IMG/VR virus record: IMGVR_UViG_3300030389_001821
Span: 1 to 22,545 of that record
Length of the DNA: 22,545 nucleotides
Reading direction: 5' to 3' (one strand)
Source of the DNA: a virus
The notes beneath the pieces are model-generated. The model did not search any database, was not told where the DNA came from, and saw only the letters and a program-made list of their open reading frames with translations. The position numbers and the translations under genes are program-made. Position 1 is the first letter of the stretch. The number at the start of each line of letters is the position of its first letter. Shown here one piece after another: positions 12,254 to 22,545 of the stretch.

Positions 12254-12631
12254 TTATTTTCTAAATGCACTAACAGCAGTAGAACTTGTTACTCTCAATA
12301 GGAAAGTACCAGAACTTGCCGCTGCAACGTCAGCATCACCAACAATAGTGACACCAGTACCAGCAGTTAGAGTGAACTTGTGAGTTGAAGTTGCCTTATT
12401 GACAATAGTTAGCTCAAAAGTTTGCCCAACTCCACCTTGAGTACCTAAAGCAGAAATAATAGCTGCTGCGGTAGGTGTTGTAACTGCTCTGTTTCCTGTT
12501 GGAGTACCATCAACAATGCCTTCAATTATTTCGGCAGTTGTTAATGTATGCGCTCCGTTTTCAGTCTTGATAACTTTAGTTTTAGTTAGTTGACCAAATG
12601 GGGGGTTTTGTAACTCAAAAAGAGTAGCCAT
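12254..12631 (-). CDS. Probable head decoration protein
   Basis: A 125-residue protein 12 bases downstream of the capsid gene, the usual place for a decoration or cement protein. GAGG lies about 8-10 bases before the ATG, one of the better Shine-Dalgarno matches here, consistent with high expression. The sequence is almost all beta and Gly/Thr/Ala rich: an AHTLTTAEIIEGIV segment, GNRAVTTPTAAAIISAL, then strands QTFELTIVN, HKFTLTAGTGVTIVG and SGTFLLRVTSS. The C-terminal half resembles beta-sandwich virion proteins common in marine phages. The assignment is by position and composition; a fibre-like domain is the alternative. Its TAA directly abuts the next ATG. Confidence 0.6.
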   Translation of the reverse strand: MATLFELQNPPFGQLTKTKVIKTENGAHTLTTAEIIEGIVDGTPTGNRAVTTPTAAAIISALGTQGGVGQTFELTIVNKATSTHKFTLTAGTGVTIVGDADVAAASSGTFLLRVTSSTAVSAFRK

Positions 12632-12643
12632 AATTAGTTACCT

Positions 12644-13681
12644 CTAGTCGTTGTTAGAAACTACAGTAGCGCGAACGATACCGATATTCTTTGTTTCGTA
12701 GACTTTCGACCAAGAGCCTACAGTTTCAAGAACTGATCTTGTGGGGTTTACAGTTGAGACTGCATATTTCAAACCAACTGGATGGTAGATGTAATGCAAA
12801 TCAATCGCCATTGCTTCTTCTAAAGCAAGTATATCTCTGTCAGTTTGTGTTCTAACTGGTGCTTGCTCCCCTGTTACCACTGATCCCGCAGCAAACATGA
12901 AAACGCTATACTCTGTTGAAGAGCCAGTTCCAGTTGTAGGTATATCATCAGAAACGATTACATTTAAACCCATGAATGAGCCAAAGTTTGGATTCTGGAA
13001 AGCACCTTGAAAAGTACCACCTGACGCTGTAGCACCACCACCATTAATGTCTGTTGCTGCAACGAAATCAACTGCATTTCTTTCCATCAAATCGTAGTAA
13101 CACTTGCTGTGCATTGCGATTGATGTAAGCTTTGAACCTTGATCTCCAAGTAAAGACTGCGCTTTTGCAACGTGTCTAGGACTTAAAGTAGTTGGTGAAT
13201 CACCAGATTCTGAATCAATAGTTAAACCAAATAACGCGGAATTACTGTCATTATTATTTAAAGAACCAAATGCACCTGTTAAACAAGAATATAAGTCCTT
13301 TTGTTTTTGGTTATTGATGTATGCTGCAGTTTTTTGAGCAATAGCCGCCATTGGGTCAGTAGAACTACCAATAGCTAAACTTGCTAAATCTCTAGAACTG
13401 AAAGCCTTACCTCTATGCAATACAGCAGCGATTTGCTGGTCTGCTGTAATTTTTGATGGTGTCAAAGATGAAGAATCAGTTAATACTTCAAAATCACCAC
13501 TTAAATTTGCTTTGTAGAAAGGTATGCGAACAAAGTCACCACCTCTTTCTGCGGATAGATTTAATTCTGCTAGAGGTTGCACCACACCACTTTGAAGGAA
13601 ACTATCTGTTTGAGTCGTAGCTTCTATCAAGTAGGGGGTAAACACCTCTGGAATAATTAAATCACTACGAACTGTAGCCAT
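12644..13681 (-). CDS. Major capsid protein (Gp13-like, HK97-fold type)
   Basis: A 345-residue protein downstream of the scaffold and upstream of the connector genes. The N-terminus (ATVRSDLIIPEVFTPYLIEAT) with the following QSGVV and the F-V-R-I-P-F-Y segment fits the Gp13-like major capsid family, which has the HK97 fold. A helix-rich middle contains RHVAKAQSLLGDQGSKLTSIAMHSK and the C-terminal part has the typical HPVGLKYAV beta segment. Length is normal for the family and there is no long cleavable delta domain at the N-terminus. The ATG lacks a Shine-Dalgarno sequence and sits behind the structured leader. Confidence 0.92.
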   Translation of the reverse strand: MATVRSDLIIPEVFTPYLIEATTQTDSFLQSGVVQPLAELNLSAERGGDFVRIPFYKANLSGDFEVLTDSSSLTPSKITADQQIAAVLHRGKAFSSRDLASLAIGSSTDPMAAIAQKTAAYINNQKQKDLYSCLTGAFGSLNNNDSNSALFGLTIDSESGDSPTTLSPRHVAKAQSLLGDQGSKLTSIAMHSKCYYDLMERNAVDFVAATDINGGGATASGGTFQGAFQNPNFGSFMGLNVIVSDDIPTTGTGSSTEYSVFMFAAGSVVTGEQAPVRTQTDRDILALEEAMAIDLHYIYHPVGLKYAVSTVNPTRSVLETVGSWSKVYETKNIGIVRATVVSNND

Positions 13682-13747
13682 GTAATTAGTTAGATATGTT
13701 TAATTGCGGGTGCAAACCCTAACTAGCGCACACTAGATAAACCTATA
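13682..13747 (-). promoter_or_regulatory. Structured leader between scaffold and major capsid genes
   Basis: One of the larger non-coding gaps in the window, 66 bases just 5' of the capsid ATG. It contains a perfect 7-base inverted repeat (TAGTTAG at 13687-13693 on the plus strand, CTAACTA at 13719-13725), with a 4-bp GGGT/ACCC hairpin (13708-13719) nested against it. An adjacent imperfect palindrome CTAGCGCACACTAG lies at 13723-13736. The structures overlap, so they could be alternatives. There is no U-run typical of a terminator and no convincing -10/-35 pair. No Shine-Dalgarno sequence precedes the capsid ATG. Possible roles are mRNA stabilisation or processing, or translational control. 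Confidence 0.35.
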
Positions 13748-14425
13748 TTAACCGCTAACAGCATTTTTGAGCATATTATATTTATTTATATCTGTTTTAT
13801 ACAATCTGCTTTGTTCTGTAAGGTTAAATGATTCTTTAGCAAACGGATTCTTTTCACCAGCAGCGGTAACAAATTCTGTTTGTACTTTTGTGGTTGTTGC
13901 TCCTCCTCCTTGAGGTCTTGGATTCTTTTGTACCCACTGTGGCATATTTGAGACCGCCCATTCTTTTACACTTGTCCTGTTATACCCATCAACAACAACA
14001 ACTGTCCCATCTGCCTCTCTAGATAATTGATCTTTGCTTATTCGTGATAAAACATATTGAGGGTCGTGAACAACGTCAGCAAGGGCAGTTACAGCTGGTG
14101 CTTCAATTTCAAGCTGCCTCTGTCTTGCTTCCAATTCTGCAATCTTTTTATTTTTTGCCTCTTCAGCCTCTCGGTATTGTTGTGCTTGTTTGGCTATTGC
14201 TTCTTCATATCTACCTTTAGCTTCAAGCTCTTCTTGCTCTTTTTGCTGTTTAAAAGCAATCAAAGCATTTACGTCAACATCGGGTGGTACAGCCTTTGCT
14301 TTTTCTTGTGCTTTGGCATATTGCTCCATTAATGCTTTGTTATTTGCTTCTAACTTTCTAACGCTTTCTTTAAGTGCTTCAACTTCTTGTGGTGAAGGAT
14401 TCGGCTTGATTGGTTCGTCAGTCAT
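13748..14425 (-). CDS. Capsid scaffolding protein
   Basis: A Glu/Lys/Gln-rich protein directly upstream of the major capsid gene. I choose ATG at 14425 (MTDEPIKPNPSP, 225 residues). The longer version would begin at TTG 14440 and adds five residues. Roughly residues 15-110 are a long heptad-like coiled coil (repeated EALKE, KLEAN, QKEQEELEAKGRYEEAIAK), followed by a domain with VHDPQYVLSRIS and a Gly/Thr linker to a C-terminal helix (SRLYKTDINKYNMLKNA) that could bind the coat protein. Scaffolds guide procapsid assembly and then exit or are degraded. The order of scaffold then coat supports the call. Confidence 0.85.
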   Translation of the reverse strand: MTDEPIKPNPSPQEVEALKESVRKLEANNKALMEQYAKAQEKAKAVPPDVDVNALIAFKQQKEQEELEAKGRYEEAIAKQAQQYREAEEAKNKKIAELEARQRQLEIEAPAVTALADVVHDPQYVLSRISKDQLSREADGTVVVVDGYNRTSVKEWAVSNMPQWVQKNPRPQGGGATTTKVQTEFVTAAGEKNPFAKESFNLTEQSRLYKTDINKYNMLKNAVSG

Positions 14426-14454
14426 AAATAATTTTAACAATATTTAACATAATA

Positions 14455-14733
14455 CTAACTCCACTTAACCTTGTCAGCCCAGTAAGCCGCAGACGTTTTA
14501 CCTTTAGCAATATTTTTAGCGTGTCTAGCTTTAAAACTTCTTCTCTTGGCTTTGTCAGAATCTGATTCACCTTTTCTTGGTGGTTTTGTTTTAGCTCCTT
14601 GCAAACCAAATCTTATAAGCCTAGTTTTACCACCATCATTTATGACAACCGCGTGTGATTTACCACTCTTATGGTTAGGAGTTCTAATAGGTTTATTAAC
14701 ACCTTTAAATGTATGCCCTCCTTTTTTTATCAT
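14455..14733 (-). CDS. Conserved phage protein with KARHAKNIAKGK...AAYWADKVKW motif
   Basis: A 92-residue basic protein. The N-terminal half contains GKSHAVVINDGGKTRLIRFGLQG (about 24-46), and the C-terminal half contains SFKARHAKNIAKGKTSAAYWADKVKW (about 66-91). That C-terminal motif (F-KARHA-KNI-KGK-SAAYWA-KVKW) occurs in many small structural or hypothetical proteins of tailed phages and ends this protein as it does elsewhere. The fold looks like a short beta segment followed by helices. It closes the small basic gene run immediately before the scaffold. The function is unknown; a head-internal, DNA- or portal-associated role is inference from position. Confidence 0.75.
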   Translation of the reverse strand: MIKKGGHTFKGVNKPIRTPNHKSGKSHAVVINDGGKTRLIRFGLQGAKTKPPRKGESDSDKAKRRSFKARHAKNIAKGKTSAAYWADKVKWS

Positions 14734-15553: not shown

Positions 15554-15745
15554 TTATCCAAAGTATTTGTTTAACAAGTCAAAGTCCTCATCTTCTAACG
15601 CTAAAACATATAAACCCTCTACTAATTGCTCAAACTCTTTTTTAGTTTGACCTGTAGAGTTTTGAATTAAATTATATATTTGTTTTGGTACTCTTCTGTT
15701 TTTTGGGAACTTGTTAATTAGTTCTGCGGCTTCAAATGGCATCAT
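15554..15745 (-). CDS. Small acidic-tailed helical protein, function unknown
   Basis: A 63-residue protein read from ATG at 15745, which overlaps the TGA of the MuF gene (ATGA) and so suggests coupled translation. An earlier in-frame ATG at 15784 would give 76 residues and overlap the MuF gene by 43 bases. Neither start has a clear Shine-Dalgarno sequence. The visible content is a helical Pro-Phe-Glu-Ala-Ala-Glu start, a basic centre (KNRRVPKQIYNLI) and an acidic C-terminus (ALEDEDFDLLNKYFG). I do not recognise a family. It is the least basic member of the small-gene run between the MuF and scaffold genes. Confidence 0.65.
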   Translation of the reverse strand: MMPFEAAELINKFPKNRRVPKQIYNLIQNSTGQTKKEFEQLVEGLYVLALEDEDFDLLNKYFG

Positions 15746-18012
15746 AAATTTTTCAGTGATTGGTCTAAAGTTGCATCTACCCATTTATACAAGCGTGGAG
15801 CCTTCTCTTGCAACCCTTCAGGATTAAAAATATATTGAGTAAAAGCTTCTGCAAATTGCTCTAAATGATTAGTTCGACTATAACCAGTTACATAAGTCAT
15901 TCCTTTGTCTTTAAAATATTGCCTACCTAAATTTAATGCACCAGATTGATAATGTACTTGGTGTCCCATTTCGTGAACTAATGTATCTAACCAATCAAAA
16001 GCAGAATCCATAGGTGTGCCATTATTCCAAACTTCACTAATTCCAGCGTCTTGACCTTGTCTCCATCGTTCATATTTATTACCTTTAAATTTAGAAAATT
16101 TGAAATTATTATCTAAAGTTTCTTTTGATATTTTTTTCATTTTTTTGGCAGTCGTAATAGTTACTTTTTTTGCACTTGTAGGTAATTGCGTATGAATCAT
16201 TCCATTACTAAAATTGGTATAACCGCTAGTGCTGCCAGTTGCAGTACCGAAATAACTATTAAAGACTTTACGCTGGAAACTACTTTGAGGTAATTGATTA
16301 TTTTTAAGTCTTTCAATACTGTCGTCTATCAAATCTTTTCTTGAATTTATTCTCCGTTGTCCATAGCCATTCCAAATTTGTTGCCAATCTTTAGTATTTT
16401 GGGGTAAATCGTTCTTATCTAATTTATTAATGTAATCAAATCGTTTAATAACAGTTTTATGTGATTCTTCAAAGGCTTTAAGATTCCTACCTGTCAAATA
16501 TCTCTTTTGTAAATCTATATATGCTTGAGTCTTTTCATTACTCATATTGTATTGATGTACAATTTTACCTTTCTTCATAAACTCTCTCATTCTCTTAACA
16601 TTTCTTTCAGTTAGACCTCCTACTTTCTCTAAACTGTCCAAACTATCCTCTGTAAACTCTTGAATATTGTTAATTTTGTTTTGTGCTAACCACTTTTCAA
16701 CACCTTCTGTTGCCATAGTAGGTGATGTCTTAATCTTTGGTGCTTTAGTAACAGGTGCGGTTACTTGTTTAACTGCACTAGGCTTGCCATATAATTTTTG
16801 AAGCTTTTCTAAAGGTACTTCAGTTCCATCATTTCTGACCATTTTTCTTATGGCAGCTTGTCCAGACCCCTCTGCTTTTGCTATTTTTTTGAATACTCTA
16901 ACTTTTTTTTCACTTCCTAAAGTTTTAATCTGTAATTTTTTGTCCTGATTTAAAAGCCAATCACCGTATTGTGTTCCTTGTGGTACTCTTCCTGTACCCT
17001 CACCAGTAGGCCTAGTTACAGCTTTATTTATTGGTGGCGGCTTTAAATCTTCAAAGCCTTTACGTTTACCTAAACCTTCATAATCTACAACAGGTACAGT
17101 AGTAGAGCGACAGTTGAAATGTTGTGGTGGCGTGGGTCCACGATTATATTTAAATTTCCGACCATCTAATCTTTTACAAATATTGCTAGTTCTGCTATCT
17201 AATGTCGCTACATATTCATATCGCGGTGCAACTTTACTATTTGCAGCATATACAGCTTGTGAAGCCTGATTCTGTACCTGATTAACAGAGGTTCTTACAA
17301 TAGTTTTGATTTGATGTGCTGCTAATTTTGTCTGCCCTGCAGCCTTTGTAGTATCTTCAAAATTTAATCTACCAGCTAATCTTTTTGCTATCTGCTTAGA
17401 TGATTCACCGCTAAAAACTCCAGCAGTAATAGTTCTTGCTAATAATGCTTGGTTTCTAGTAGCAATACCCCTAAAAGCTTTTTGTACTGTTTGTCCATTA
17501 GGAAGTGTCATCATCGCACCTTGTCTAGCGGTTAGCTCAAATTTACCTGAACCAAACTTAATAAAATCATCCTCAGTAAATTGTTTACTTGTAAAAATAT
17601 TTATTTTAGTTGGATCAGTTTTTACATAGGAGGAAGCATATCTTTGGCTTACTGCAACTGAATTTATTGGAATATCACCAGATTTAACTGCCTTCTGTAA
17701 TTCTCTTTCTATAAAGCCTGTTTGAATTTTCGCTAAACCTTCCATTTCTTTTATCATTACTTTGGTCGTTTCTTTAGACCATTTATCCATACTTGCCTTT
17801 GATTGAGCAATAATTGCTCTTAATCTTTTTTTTGTTTGTGGTGCAACGATAACATTCGCTGGTGCAGCTTGTTGCTTTATATCTAATTTTACAAGTTGTT
17901 CTGCAGCATTATAAATAACTAATACATAATTTTCTACAAACCTATTAGCTACAGCGTTACTATATCTATTTAAATCAATAGTCTCTCTAAAAAATACCTC
18001 TGGAATACTCAT
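15742..18012 (-). CDS. MuF-type minor head protein fused to a zinc metallopeptidase domain
   Basis: A 756-residue fusion. The N-terminal 310 residues form the MuF/SPP1 gp7-like head morphogenesis domain, ending in the typical Cys/His segment (DSRTSNICKRLDGRKF at 272-287, then PPQHFNCRSTTVPV at 296-309). This domain normally binds the portal on the inside of the head. After a Pro/Lys-rich linker and helical segments (about 320-580), the C-terminus has a metallopeptidase signature HEMGH (680-684), with a second motif LEQFAEAF (717-724) whose E718 is the expected third zinc ligand, as in gluzincins of the anthrax lethal factor type. MuF proteins are known to carry variable C-terminal enzymatic or toxin domains. 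No separate capsid protease is visible in this window, so the peptidase may process head proteins or be injected into the host. The stop TGA overlaps the ATG of the next gene. Confidence 0.88.
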   Translation of the reverse strand: MSIPEVFFRETIDLNRYSNAVANRFVENYVLVIYNAAEQLVKLDIKQQAAPANVIVAPQTKKRLRAIIAQSKASMDKWSKETTKVMIKEMEGLAKIQTGFIERELQKAVKSGDIPINSVAVSQRYASSYVKTDPTKINIFTSKQFTEDDFIKFGSGKFELTARQGAMMTLPNGQTVQKAFRGIATRNQALLARTITAGVFSGESSKQIAKRLAGRLNFEDTTKAAGQTKLAAHQIKTIVRTSVNQVQNQASQAVYAANSKVAPRYEYVATLDSRTSNICKRLDGRKFKYNRGPTPPQHFNCRSTTVPVVDYEGLGKRKGFEDLKPPPINKAVTRPTGEGTGRVPQGTQYGDWLLNQDKKLQIKTLGSEKKVRVFKKIAKAEGSGQAAIRKMVRNDGTEVPLEKLQKLYGKPSAVKQVTAPVTKAPKIKTSPTMATEGVEKWLAQNKINNIQEFTEDSLDSLEKVGGLTERNVKRMREFMKKGKIVHQYNMSNEKTQAYIDLQKRYLTGRNLKAFEESHKTVIKRFDYINKLDKNDLPQNTKDWQQIWNGYGQRRINSRKDLIDDSIERLKNNQLPQSSFQRKVFNSYFGTATGSTSGYTNFSNGMIHTQLPTSAKKVTITTAKKMKKISKETLDNNFKFSKFKGNKYERWRQGQDAGISEVWNNGTPMDSAFDWLDTLVHEMGHQVHYQSGALNLGRQYFKDKGMTYVTGYSRTNHLEQFAEAFTQYIFNPEGLQEKAPRLYKWVDATLDQSLKNL

Positions 18013-19463: not shown

Positions 19464-20807
19464 TTAATATATTCTAATTCCTGTAGGTCTGCCCGCCCGC
19501 GCAAACAAAGGATTAAACTCTCGCCAAATAATATAGCCTAGTGCGTCTGCCATGTGGTCATATCCTGAGTCTTTATCTGGTTCACCTTTTTCATTGTAAC
19601 TTTGTAGTTCCATAGATTCAATTAACTTTCTGCAACTGGCATGGATAAGTAGACGTACTTGCCCTTTTCCGTTACATAAAAGAGCCTGTACGGAAGAAAC
19701 CCTGTCTCTGATTGGCGGGTTACTGCGTGGCGACTGATTGCTGAACCCATACGTTTCCAAAATGGCAATATCAGTTTGGCTGCTGTTTGTGCTTCTATTC
19801 CCACCGCTGGCATCTGGATAAACATATATTTTATTGTAAGGATATCTGGCCTTAATTTCTTTCGCAAGAGCGTCTGTATCATGTGCTGACACAATCTCAT
19901 CAATAATAACCAATTTTTCTTCTAATTTGACTCCTACTACTGCGCTCATATTTCCAATATTGAAATCAACACCAATTCTTAAAGGCTCCATTTTATAATC
20001 TGGCAACTCACTTATCACATTATCTTTTCTTATAAATCTGTCATATACTTGCCCAGTTGTGAGGTTGGTAAACTCACCGTTAAGGTAAGCCTGCAACATA
20101 CTGGAATCGTAGTTTGCTTGCATTCTTTCAATAAAATCTTCTGGCAAATGTGGGTTGTCTTGCGTTCTCATTCTTATTAGTTTGCGGTCAGTTCTTTCTT
20201 GCGCTGCTTCAGACCCAAATGTATTCCACATCCATCTAAAGCCCTCTGGAGTGCTTGCTGCGCAGAACTGCCTGACATTACCAGCCCTTAACCTTCCTAA
20301 AATCTTCGGAAATGCTCTATCGCACACAGATGGTGAAACTGTGTCTATTTCATCTGCTAATACAAAAGCTAGATTTAAACCAATTATGCGTGACCAGTTC
20401 TCAAAACTTCTGCATAATATTTTTGTATCCCCATCTGGTAAATGTAAAATGTATTCAGGTAATGGACTAGCTCTGTATGAATAAGGTATTTCATAATGTT
20501 CTAAAAATTGCTCAAAGTCATTTTGCCAGATGTCACGAATCAATGAACCTGTCGGCTCCATTACAGCACCAGTAAATCCAACATTAAGAGCAGCTAATTT
20601 AACACAGACTGCACATAATGCTCTAGTCTTGCCTGCACCATAACCAGCAGATAAACCTAATATTTCAGTATTACTGTTATCAAAAAACTCTCTTTGTGGC
20701 TTGTGAAGATCATTTCTAATATTTGCTAATAACTGTTTTATATTTAGTGAAACTCCACTGCTGCCTGCAATATCTAGGACTGAACCTTCTCTAGTTAATA
20801 TGCTCAT
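19464..20807 (-). CDS. terL: Terminase large subunit
   Basis: The 447-residue ATP-driven packaging motor and headful or site nuclease. The N-terminal ATPase has Walker A GYGAGKT (55-61), Walker B FVLADEID (148-155, with D152/E153) and a coupling-motif-like AASTPEG (183-189). The C-terminal RNase H-like nuclease has candidate metal-binding acids at D281 (IGVDFNIG), D332 (YPDASG) and D417/D421 (GYDHMADALGYIIW). Length and domain order are normal for the family. It starts within the stop of the small subunit and ends 26 bases before the portal. A 93-residue same-strand frame inside it (19622-19903) is a shadow. Confidence 0.96.
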   Translation of the reverse strand: MSILTREGSVLDIAGSSGVSLNIKQLLANIRNDLHKPQREFFDNSNTEILGLSAGYGAGKTRALCAVCVKLAALNVGFTGAVMEPTGSLIRDIWQNDFEQFLEHYEIPYSYRASPLPEYILHLPDGDTKILCRSFENWSRIIGLNLAFVLADEIDTVSPSVCDRAFPKILGRLRAGNVRQFCAASTPEGFRWMWNTFGSEAAQERTDRKLIRMRTQDNPHLPEDFIERMQANYDSSMLQAYLNGEFTNLTTGQVYDRFIRKDNVISELPDYKMEPLRIGVDFNIGNMSAVVGVKLEEKLVIIDEIVSAHDTDALAKEIKARYPYNKIYVYPDASGGNRSTNSSQTDIAILETYGFSNQSPRSNPPIRDRVSSVQALLCNGKGQVRLLIHASCRKLIESMELQSYNEKGEPDKDSGYDHMADALGYIIWREFNPLFARAGRPTGIRIY

Positions 20808-21127
20808 GTTGTTATTTGTGCAATTTTTGCCATAGAGTTAATACAGCCAAGGGCTACGCTTAATTGATTACTGTTTCTTGCTTCTTTTTGTAAGGTAGAA
20901 AGCTGGCTCAAAATGTCCGCGGTAAACTGTCTTCTATCAATATCAAAATCTTTCTTTAGAACGATACGAGCGTCTTGTATATATTGTTCTGTTTGTCTAA
21001 GTTTGAGACCCCACTCAGCCGCGGTATATTTTATTATTTCTGATCTTGTTACTCCGCGTGAAAGTAAAGCAGCTATCCTGTAAGTTCTGTATTCTTTTTC
21101 TGATTGAGTAGCTTTTTTTCTGGTCAC
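20804..21127 (-). CDS. terS: Terminase small subunit-like HTH protein
   Basis: A 107-residue, charged, helical protein directly upstream of the large terminase, with which it shares an ATGA overlap. Residues about 28-62 (ending RQTEQYIQDARIVL) read as a helix-turn-helix in which the second helix recognises DNA. The remainder is predicted helical and may form the oligomerisation region. Small terminases bind the packaging site on concatemeric DNA and regulate the large subunit. The start is GTG at 21127, sharing one base with the preceding TAG. The assignment rests on the HTH, the size and the position, since small terminases are poorly conserved. A plain HTH regulator is the alternative. Confidence 0.75.
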   Translation of the reverse strand: MTRKKATQSEKEYRTYRIAALLSRGVTRSEIIKYTAAEWGLKLRQTEQYIQDARIVLKKDFDIDRRQFTADILSQLSTLQKEARNSNQLSVALGCINSMAKIAQITT

Positions 21128-21912
21128 TATTTTTGTAGTTTATGGAATGAATCTAGCGCATACCAAACGTGAGAGTTTCTATAACCTCCTTGATATGTAG
21201 GAATAATAGGTGTAACTCCATGTCTATTTCTCCAAGCTGGATATACCAATAAAGAGTTATCAGTTTGGTCGAATGTGGCATTATAGTCTGGAACATGCAA
21301 GTTACCGCCCTTACTGTTCCTCCTTTTGGTAATTATCATATTTATAGCACCTTTTACATTAGCGTGGTCTTGATGAACTGGTGCAGATATATTGCAATTC
21401 GAGATCGTAGAACTAAAATTTTTAGCGAAACGCCAGTTATCAGGTATTCTTTGTTCAACTTTCATAGTGTGAGAATCAGCAACGGTAGGAATATATTTTT
21501 TTACTAATTCAAAAGATTTTATACCAGCTGCAAACATAGCTTTAACAAAAGTATTAGCACTTTTTACAGAATGAACTGATGATCTACTAGCATATGGCCT
21601 TCTCATATGTGGTTTAGGTGGGCAAGAACCGCAAATAGTTGAATATTGCAATACTTCAGCTTTTTTATTATGTAGGCCGCTTGATCTTTTCATTTCAGAC
21701 TTAGGTACACGTTTAGTTTGTATTTCTTTGTCAGCTATATTCACAAGGTTCTGTAAGTCATCTGGCAAAGTTTTTATAAACAAACCCACAGGAGTACCAT
21801 CTGGGTCTATTAAAATGCAATCGTCAAAAATATTAGGCTCAAAACCGCCTACACTATCACCGATTTTTAAAGATGACGTAGCTGGCTTCAGAATTAGTTC
21901 AGGTAAATTCAT
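21127..21912 (-). CDS. Putative Fe(II)/2-oxoglutarate dioxygenase, TET/JBP-like
   Basis: A 261-residue protein, probably an Fe(II)/2OG-dependent hydroxylase. The C-terminal half carries an H-x-D pair (H180, D182), then a GG turn and strand (GGNLHVPDYN, 202-211), the distal H231 in RHGVTPI, and R245 in a R-x-S-x-V-x-Y strand. This is the usual arrangement of two His and one Asp for iron plus an Arg for the 2OG carboxylate. The GG-x-L-x-(V/L)-P-(E/D)-Y strand and the HG-x-TPI motif are what I associate with the TET/JBP nucleobase oxygenases, some of which are phage-encoded. An N-terminal segment (about 30-50, DPDGTPVGLFIK) and a basic segment around 99-110 (PPKPHMRRPYASR) also recall JBP-type proteins. 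The start abuts the methyltransferase stop, and its TAG overlaps the terminase GTG by one base. The oxygenase fold is inferred from motif spacing; action on DNA bases is a hypothesis. Confidence 0.65.
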   Translation of the reverse strand: MNLPELILKPATSSLKIGDSVGGFEPNIFDDCILIDPDGTPVGLFIKTLPDDLQNLVNIADKEIQTKRVPKSEMKRSSGLHNKKAEVLQYSTICGSCPPKPHMRRPYASRSSVHSVKSANTFVKAMFAAGIKSFELVKKYIPTVADSHTMKVEQRIPDNWRFAKNFSSTISNCNISAPVHQDHANVKGAINMIITKRRNSKGGNLHVPDYNATFDQTDNSLLVYPAWRNRHGVTPIIPTYQGGYRNSHVWYALDSFHKLQK

Positions 21913-22545
21913 TTATGTTCTATCCCTTTTGAAACAAAAAACCATAGTATTAGGTGGAAACCAGTTTTTGCCCCACATAAATTGATCTTTCTCTTCGTAA
22001 CGTATCGCAAGATAGTCTGCCGAAACTCTATATTTTAATTTTTGTTTATCAATAACTTTCCAAATTTTTGGCAAACTTGGGTCTATATCAAAACTCCACT
22101 CATATACAAGTTTGTTAAAGTCACTTTTTGTATTTGTAAGTATTGGAATCTCTGCACCCTCTATATCCATTTTGCAATTATCAGCTAATACAGCTTGTTC
22201 ATCGAAATTTAGACAAGATACTTTGATTGCTTTATTACTTTTCTTTTTCATTATTGTATTTCTCCAAACATTACCATCTTTTGCTATCGACAATATTGTT
22301 GTTTTTCTATCATCATGTACTAATGCAGCTTGTTTAATCTTGATAGCATTTTGAAACCCATTTAATTTAGCGTTTTTTTCAATTAGCTCACAGTTGAAAG
22401 GGTCAGGCTCATAAGTTATCACAGATGCACCTTTAGATGCAGCTAATAAAGAAAAAGCACCAACATTACCACCACAATCAAGCCAAGTTTCATTATTTAG
22501 AACCTCCATACCTTTTTTTAGGTACGACTGATTCGATAAGACCTC
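21913..22545 (-). CDS. FkbM-family SAM-dependent methyltransferase, N-terminus outside the window
   Basis: Class I SAM-dependent methyltransferase of the FkbM family, which typically O-methylates hydroxyl groups on small molecules or glycans. The reading frame is open to the window edge, so the N-terminus is missing. The Met at 22509 is probably internal, because the upstream codons continue in frame (..SYLKKG-MEVL), matching the usual approach to motif I. Numbering from that Met, the SAM-binding glycine loop DCGGNVGAF is at 11-19, the acidic end of strand 2 (YEPD) at 33-36, and the family signature KMDIEGAE at 113-120. The C-terminus (WFPPNTMVFCFKR) looks complete. Its TAA stop directly abuts the ATG of the dioxygenase-like gene, so the two are probably co-translated. 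The substrate is unknown: sugar, peptide or a hydroxylated base are all possible. The family call is firm and the substrate is not. Confidence 0.85.
   Translation of the reverse strand, partial: EVLSNQSYLKKGMEVLNNETWLDCGGNVGAFSLLAASKGASVITYEPDPFNCELIEKNAKLNGFQNAIKIKQAALVHDDRKTTILSIAKDGNVWRNTIMKKKSNKAIKVSCLNFDEQAVLADNCKMDIEGAEIPILTNTKSDFNKLVYEWSFDIDPSLPKIWKVIDKQKLKYRVSADYLAIRYEEKDQFMWGKNWFPPNTMVFCFKRDRT

Follow-up and report, generated by a model that had tools for sequence, protein, structure and literature searches.

The window, by which we mean the whole 22,545-nucleotide stretch analyzed here (a 22.5-kb virus record with head and tail genes of a Prochlorococcus-type siphophage), encodes a predicted DNA base oxygenase of the TET/JBP family (hereafter TET) beside an FkbM-family methyltransferase, and in related phages the latter is repeatedly exchanged with a TET-associated glycosyltransferase (TAGT). 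The analysis establishes the family, fold and active-site conservation of the TET, the cassette in which it lies and the exchange of FkbM with TAGT; as the best explanation of the whole we consider it moderately probable that the TET hydroxylates thymine and the FkbM enzyme caps the product with a methyl group, both acting on the phage's own DNA. The sequence-only reading of this DNA had identified the TET but missed its link to the neighboring methyltransferase, from which most is to be learned. Phage TET/JBP enzymes and a pathway combining a cytosine-C5 methyltransferase, a TET and a glycosyltransferase are already known (PMC12730594), as is the TAGT (PMC13390438, PMC13216743). No pairing of TET and FkbM in phages was found in the literature searched; an earlier mention, for example in Burke 2021 or Iyer 2013, is possible.

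The TET gene runs from an ATG to a TAG stop on the minus strand and codes for 261 amino acids; the bounds first proposed for it are exact (Table 1), and the motifs named with them (H180-Q-D182, H231, R245, GGNLHVPDY and HGVTPI) are all present. In an alignment of 231 distinct, full-length relatives, D182, H231, R245, N172, P208, T234 and Y251 are retained in every sequence and H180 in 230 of them, and judging by this conservation the motif set is more than a chance occurrence. The nearest named TETs, from the Prochlorococcus phages MED4-117, MED4-184 and P-HS2, are 92% identical over the full length. The window protein matches phrog_6059 at 9e-94 and the Pfam Tet_JBP profile at E=4.4e-5 (23.2 bits, short of the gathering score of 34.9); the gathering score is passed by the homologue L173 (36.6 bits) and by gp18 of the Pelagibacter isolate phage HTVC112P, its equivalent in the cassette (103 bits, E=1.1e-29). 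An AlphaFold model built on 26 sequences (pLDDT 79, pTM 0.83) is predicted to place the HxD at the end of a strand, H231 inside another strand and R245 at the opening of a third. When this model was searched against the PDB with Foldseek, the first 25 places were all taken by the TET family (CcTET, CMD1, human TET2, NgTET1), with E-values from 2e-11 to 1e-7 and TM scores of about 0.6, and FTO and AlkBH3 came after them. Thus, the comparison with TET/JBP, AlkB and other 2-oxoglutarate enzymes that had been suggested ranks the TET family first, a generic 2-oxoglutarate, AlkB or FTO enzyme was rejected on this ranking, and the reading as a TET/JBP-type nucleobase oxygenase draws support from profile, conservation and fold. 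With human TET2, NgTET1, CcTET, CMD1 and kinetoplastid JBP the protein shares the double-stranded beta-helix, the HxD...H metal site and the distal arginine, whereas it is a small phage form with just 12–14% identity to the solved members.

Two other identities were considered and dismissed. The TET carries the RefSeq/PHROG name queuine tRNA-ribosyltransferase, and no TGT domain was found in it with Pfam up to E=10; matches of the TET profile to TAL effectors are helical, fall at profile positions 112–156 outside the catalytic core and include no single stretch that is significant. Misnaming is also seen in database relatives (L175, L176, L177 and L082 at 12347-14471), in which the TET is called 'queuine tRNA-ribosyltransferase' or 'putative SNF2 DNA repair protein'.

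Table 1. Features of the TET locus in the window
Feature	Coordinates	Strand	Basis
FkbM-family SAM-dependent methyltransferase, about 25 aa cut off by the window end	21913..22545	-	Methyltransf_21
TET/JBP-family 2-oxoglutarate/Fe(II) DNA base oxygenase (predicted)	21127..21912	-	Tet_JBP, phrog_6059, AlphaFold, PDB fold matches
Predicted Fe(II)-binding H180-Q-D182	21367..21375	-	H in 230/231, D in 231/231 relatives
Predicted distal Fe(II)-binding H231	21220..21222	-	231/231 relatives
R245, predicted 2-oxoglutarate-binding arginine	21178..21180	-	231/231 relatives; role by analogy with the TET/JBP family
Putative small terminase subunit (TerS), 107 aa	20804..21127	-	Position before TerL; phrog_34910, no Pfam match
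Large terminase subunit (TerL)	19464..20807	-	Terminase_6N and 6C

On the coding strand, the genes follow in the order FkbM methyltransferase, TET, putative TerS and TerL. Neighbors meet at junctions of -4 to 0 bases: the 107-aa gene starts with a GTG that shares one base with the TET stop, and it shares four with the large terminase gene. The TET was correctly placed directly upstream of this gene, which is named TerS from its position and size only, phrog_34910 being a family of unknown function. A proposed role in marking DNA during packaging has the position beside the terminase as its sole basis, and in some relatives, such as Nonlabens phage P12024L and Arthrobacter phage Lilmac1015, the cassette lies away from the terminase. 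In MED4-117 and P-HS2, the gene upstream of FkbM encodes a ParB-like protein with ParB_N as its sole Pfam match. This ParB-like partner of the TET is labeled 'DNA methylase' in databases; CPWG_00024, so named, was considered as a source of 5-methylcytosine (5mC) and set aside as a ParB-like protein. Elsewhere in the window (15742-18012, minus strand) lies a gene for a 756-aa Mu-F-like head morphogenesis protein with a C-terminal zincin-like metallopeptidase domain, which has an HEMGHQVH motif and a weak Pfam ATLF-domain match below the cut-off (E=1.2e-4); its equivalent is a single ORF in P-HS2 and two overlapping ORFs in MED4-117.

The window FkbM protein matches Pfam Methyltransf_21 at 4.4e-12 (46.9 bits, cut-off 22.7) and has the conserved motif KxDIEGxE, and a model of its orthologue from L003 (pLDDT 90.5) shows a class I SAM fold. 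To survey the cassette, we scanned IMG/VR with the TET as the query and then, independently, with FkbM as the query; most of the relatives so recovered are fragments, and both the choice of query and the content of IMG/VR weight the sequence sets. With the TET query, FkbM adjoins the TET in 53 of the 65 distinct TETs of the nearest set and TAGT in six; with the FkbM query, all 65 new loci show ParB-FkbM-TET, with TET identities down to 48% and unrelated terminases. HTVC112P and its relatives have the trio reordered as ParB-TET-FkbM, and the HTVC112P enzyme is the best FkbM match that named phages give beyond the cyanophages (8e-16, covering 95% of the length). In some close relatives (L032/L033 and L049-L052), ParB abuts a TET that has no FkbM or TAGT next to it; hydroxymethyluracil is possibly the end product in these, or the tailoring gene lies elsewhere. 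ParB and TET also occur together on contigs of bacterial metagenome-assembled genomes from a beta-proteobacterium, Flavobacteriaceae and Oscillatoria (L221, L222, L223), probably as prophage or co-binned phage, and in L222 the slot is filled by a TAGT-like gene with terminase-like genes after it.

Phage cassettes combining TET and TAGT (PF20691) share with the above the order ParB-X-TET, in which slot X interchanges between TAGT and FkbM and is occupied in the window by FkbM. A TAGT scoring above the Pfam cut-off lies between ParB and TET in L057, L063, L078 and L081. Sorted by profile, 237 distinct TET cassettes comprise about 124 that carry FkbM, about 72 that carry TAGT and a single one, L207, that carries both; these totals are skewed by the FkbM-query scan, and some of the cassettes scored as having neither may hide a divergent TAGT. 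At least 13 changes between FkbM and TAGT are needed on a tree of 89 TETs, and its supported sister pairs of opposite state include L043/L057, L279/L281 and L307/L308. Such repeated exchange at one slot is what enzymes with a common product group as their target would be expected to show; hence, the most likely role of FkbM is to cap the hydroxymethyl group that the TET produces, and we hold with good confidence that it acts on the TET product.

What it adds there is less constrained, and we give about even weight to an O-methyl ether. The top PDB matches of the FkbM model, of modest TM score, are mostly nucleic-acid enzymes, headed by TYW2. Since TYW2 is an aminocarboxypropyl transferase, the FkbM-like enzyme could instead transfer another SAM-derived group, such as aminocarboxypropyl, to 5-hydroxymethyluracil. 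FkbM enzymes in general also methylate sugars and small molecules, and the joint presence of FkbM and TAGT in one cassette (L207 1056-3360) means that there FkbM may methylate a sugar attached by another enzyme. The Pfam FkbM domain and the KxDIEGxE motif, however, fit an O-methyltransferase, and no TAGT was detected with PF20691 in the window, MED4-117, P-HS2 or the other FkbM genomes tested; accordingly, we judge another SAM-derived group or a sugar target to be unlikely. Further tailoring genes adjoin the TET in other pelagiphage-like cassettes, with another putative SAM methyltransferase and a TAGT in L218 (1-1799) and a putative nucleotidyltransferase/cupin protein and a TAGT in L209 (3980-6427); together with L207, these suggest more complex caps.

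The exchangeable partners also bear on whether the target is DNA at all. Enzymes of both the 2-oxoglutarate oxygenase and FkbM classes generally have substrates such as proteins, glycans, RNA or free metabolites, and the TET and FkbM genes adjoin virion genes, so that the pair might modify a virion protein, a host glycan, RNA or a free metabolite. We rate this as highly improbable, because the fold search ranks the TET family higher than FTO and AlkB and because the exchangeable partners belong to DNA-modifying families. The cassette partners TAGT, amino acid:DNA transferase (ADDT) and P-loop kinase back the DNA role originally suggested, and DNA is very probably the substrate of the TET.

A TET needs a 5-methylpyrimidine, and thymine meets this need with no separate methyltransferase. 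No cytosine-C5 methyltransferase was matched in the window, MED4-117 or P-HS2, nor in HTVC112P, Nonlabens P12024L, Cr30, S-CBWM1 or the actinophages tested; more broadly, it is absent from 36 of 38 records and from all 19 further records, and the two exceptions, L086 (G017) and L087 (G016), carry it away from the TET cassette. Searches of 15 records, MED4-117, P-HS2 and HTVC112P among them, also gave no thymidylate-synthase homologue and neither an N6/N4 nor a D12 methyltransferase. The lack of these genes in most relatives makes thymine likelier than 5mC. Related actinophage TETs, in turn, adjoin genes for ADDT and Ploopntkinase3, and the ADDT and P-loop kinase families are linked to thymidine hypermodification. 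These actinophage cassettes (for example, those of Mycobacterium phage Prince, Rhodococcus phage Tonitrus and Gordonia phage LittleMunchkin, where the TET is named 'gp2' or thymidine hydroxylase) encode a homologous TET of 25–35% identity and, like the cyanophage ones, have a ParB-like gene adjoining the TET and a terminase downstream. In contrast to them, the cyanophage clade has the FkbM methyltransferase in place of ADDT and P-loop kinase: neither ADDT (PF18724) nor Ploopntkinase3 (PF18751) was detected in the window, MED4-117, P-HS2 or their relatives, with Tonitrus and Prince positive as controls.

The alternative is that the TET hydroxylates 5mC supplied by the host or by an unseen methyltransferase and that FkbM caps hydroxymethylcytosine. 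The best PDB fold matches of the TET model do act on 5mC, the relatives G016 and G017 do carry a C5 methyltransferase, and phage TETs acting on 5mC have been reported (Burke et al. 2021, as cited in PMC12730594). In the pathway attributed to that study, a C5 methyltransferase, a TET and a glycosyltransferase act together, and TET oxidation precedes a tailoring enzyme, as we propose here; the window, unlike that pathway, encodes no C5 methyltransferase. Host-made 5mC is a possible substrate, but the hosts are spread over several phyla and the C5 methyltransferase is missing from nearly all the phages; the earlier hint at 5mC is therefore not upheld, and this alternative appears to us improbable. 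Thymine, rather than 5mC, is probably the substrate of the TET.

With thymine as the substrate, the TET would use 2-oxoglutarate and Fe(II) to hydroxylate its 5-methyl group, giving 5-hydroxymethyluracil at some positions. The FkbM enzyme, standing where TAGT stands in sister phages, would then use SAM to methyl-cap the hydroxyl, yielding 5-(methoxymethyl)uracil, while the ParB-like protein probably binds DNA or directs the complex to it. By analogy, the modified base would likely protect the phage DNA from host nucleases. That TET and FkbM make 5-(methoxymethyl)uracil in widespread Prochlorococcus and Pelagibacter phages, with a sugar cap as the alternative in the same slot, is a proposal we advance tentatively, as a realistic possibility short of probable. 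5-(Methoxymethyl)uracil is not known to have been reported in nature, and the literature searched contained neither a base analysis nor an enzyme assay for these phages.

The pathway amounts to a chemical prediction for the DNA of the cultured ocean phages MED4-117, P-HS2 and HTVC112P, and the analysis corrects the misleading database names attached to its components (queuine tRNA-ribosyltransferase, SNF2 DNA repair protein and DNA methylase). If true, TET-made hydroxymethyl groups would be capped by methylation as well as by glycosylation or amino acid transfer, and phages would provide a new enzyme pair with which to write a small, stable mark on DNA. Together, the TET/FkbM pair and the swapping of the slot beside it point to a capped DNA base in common ocean viruses that has so far escaped notice.
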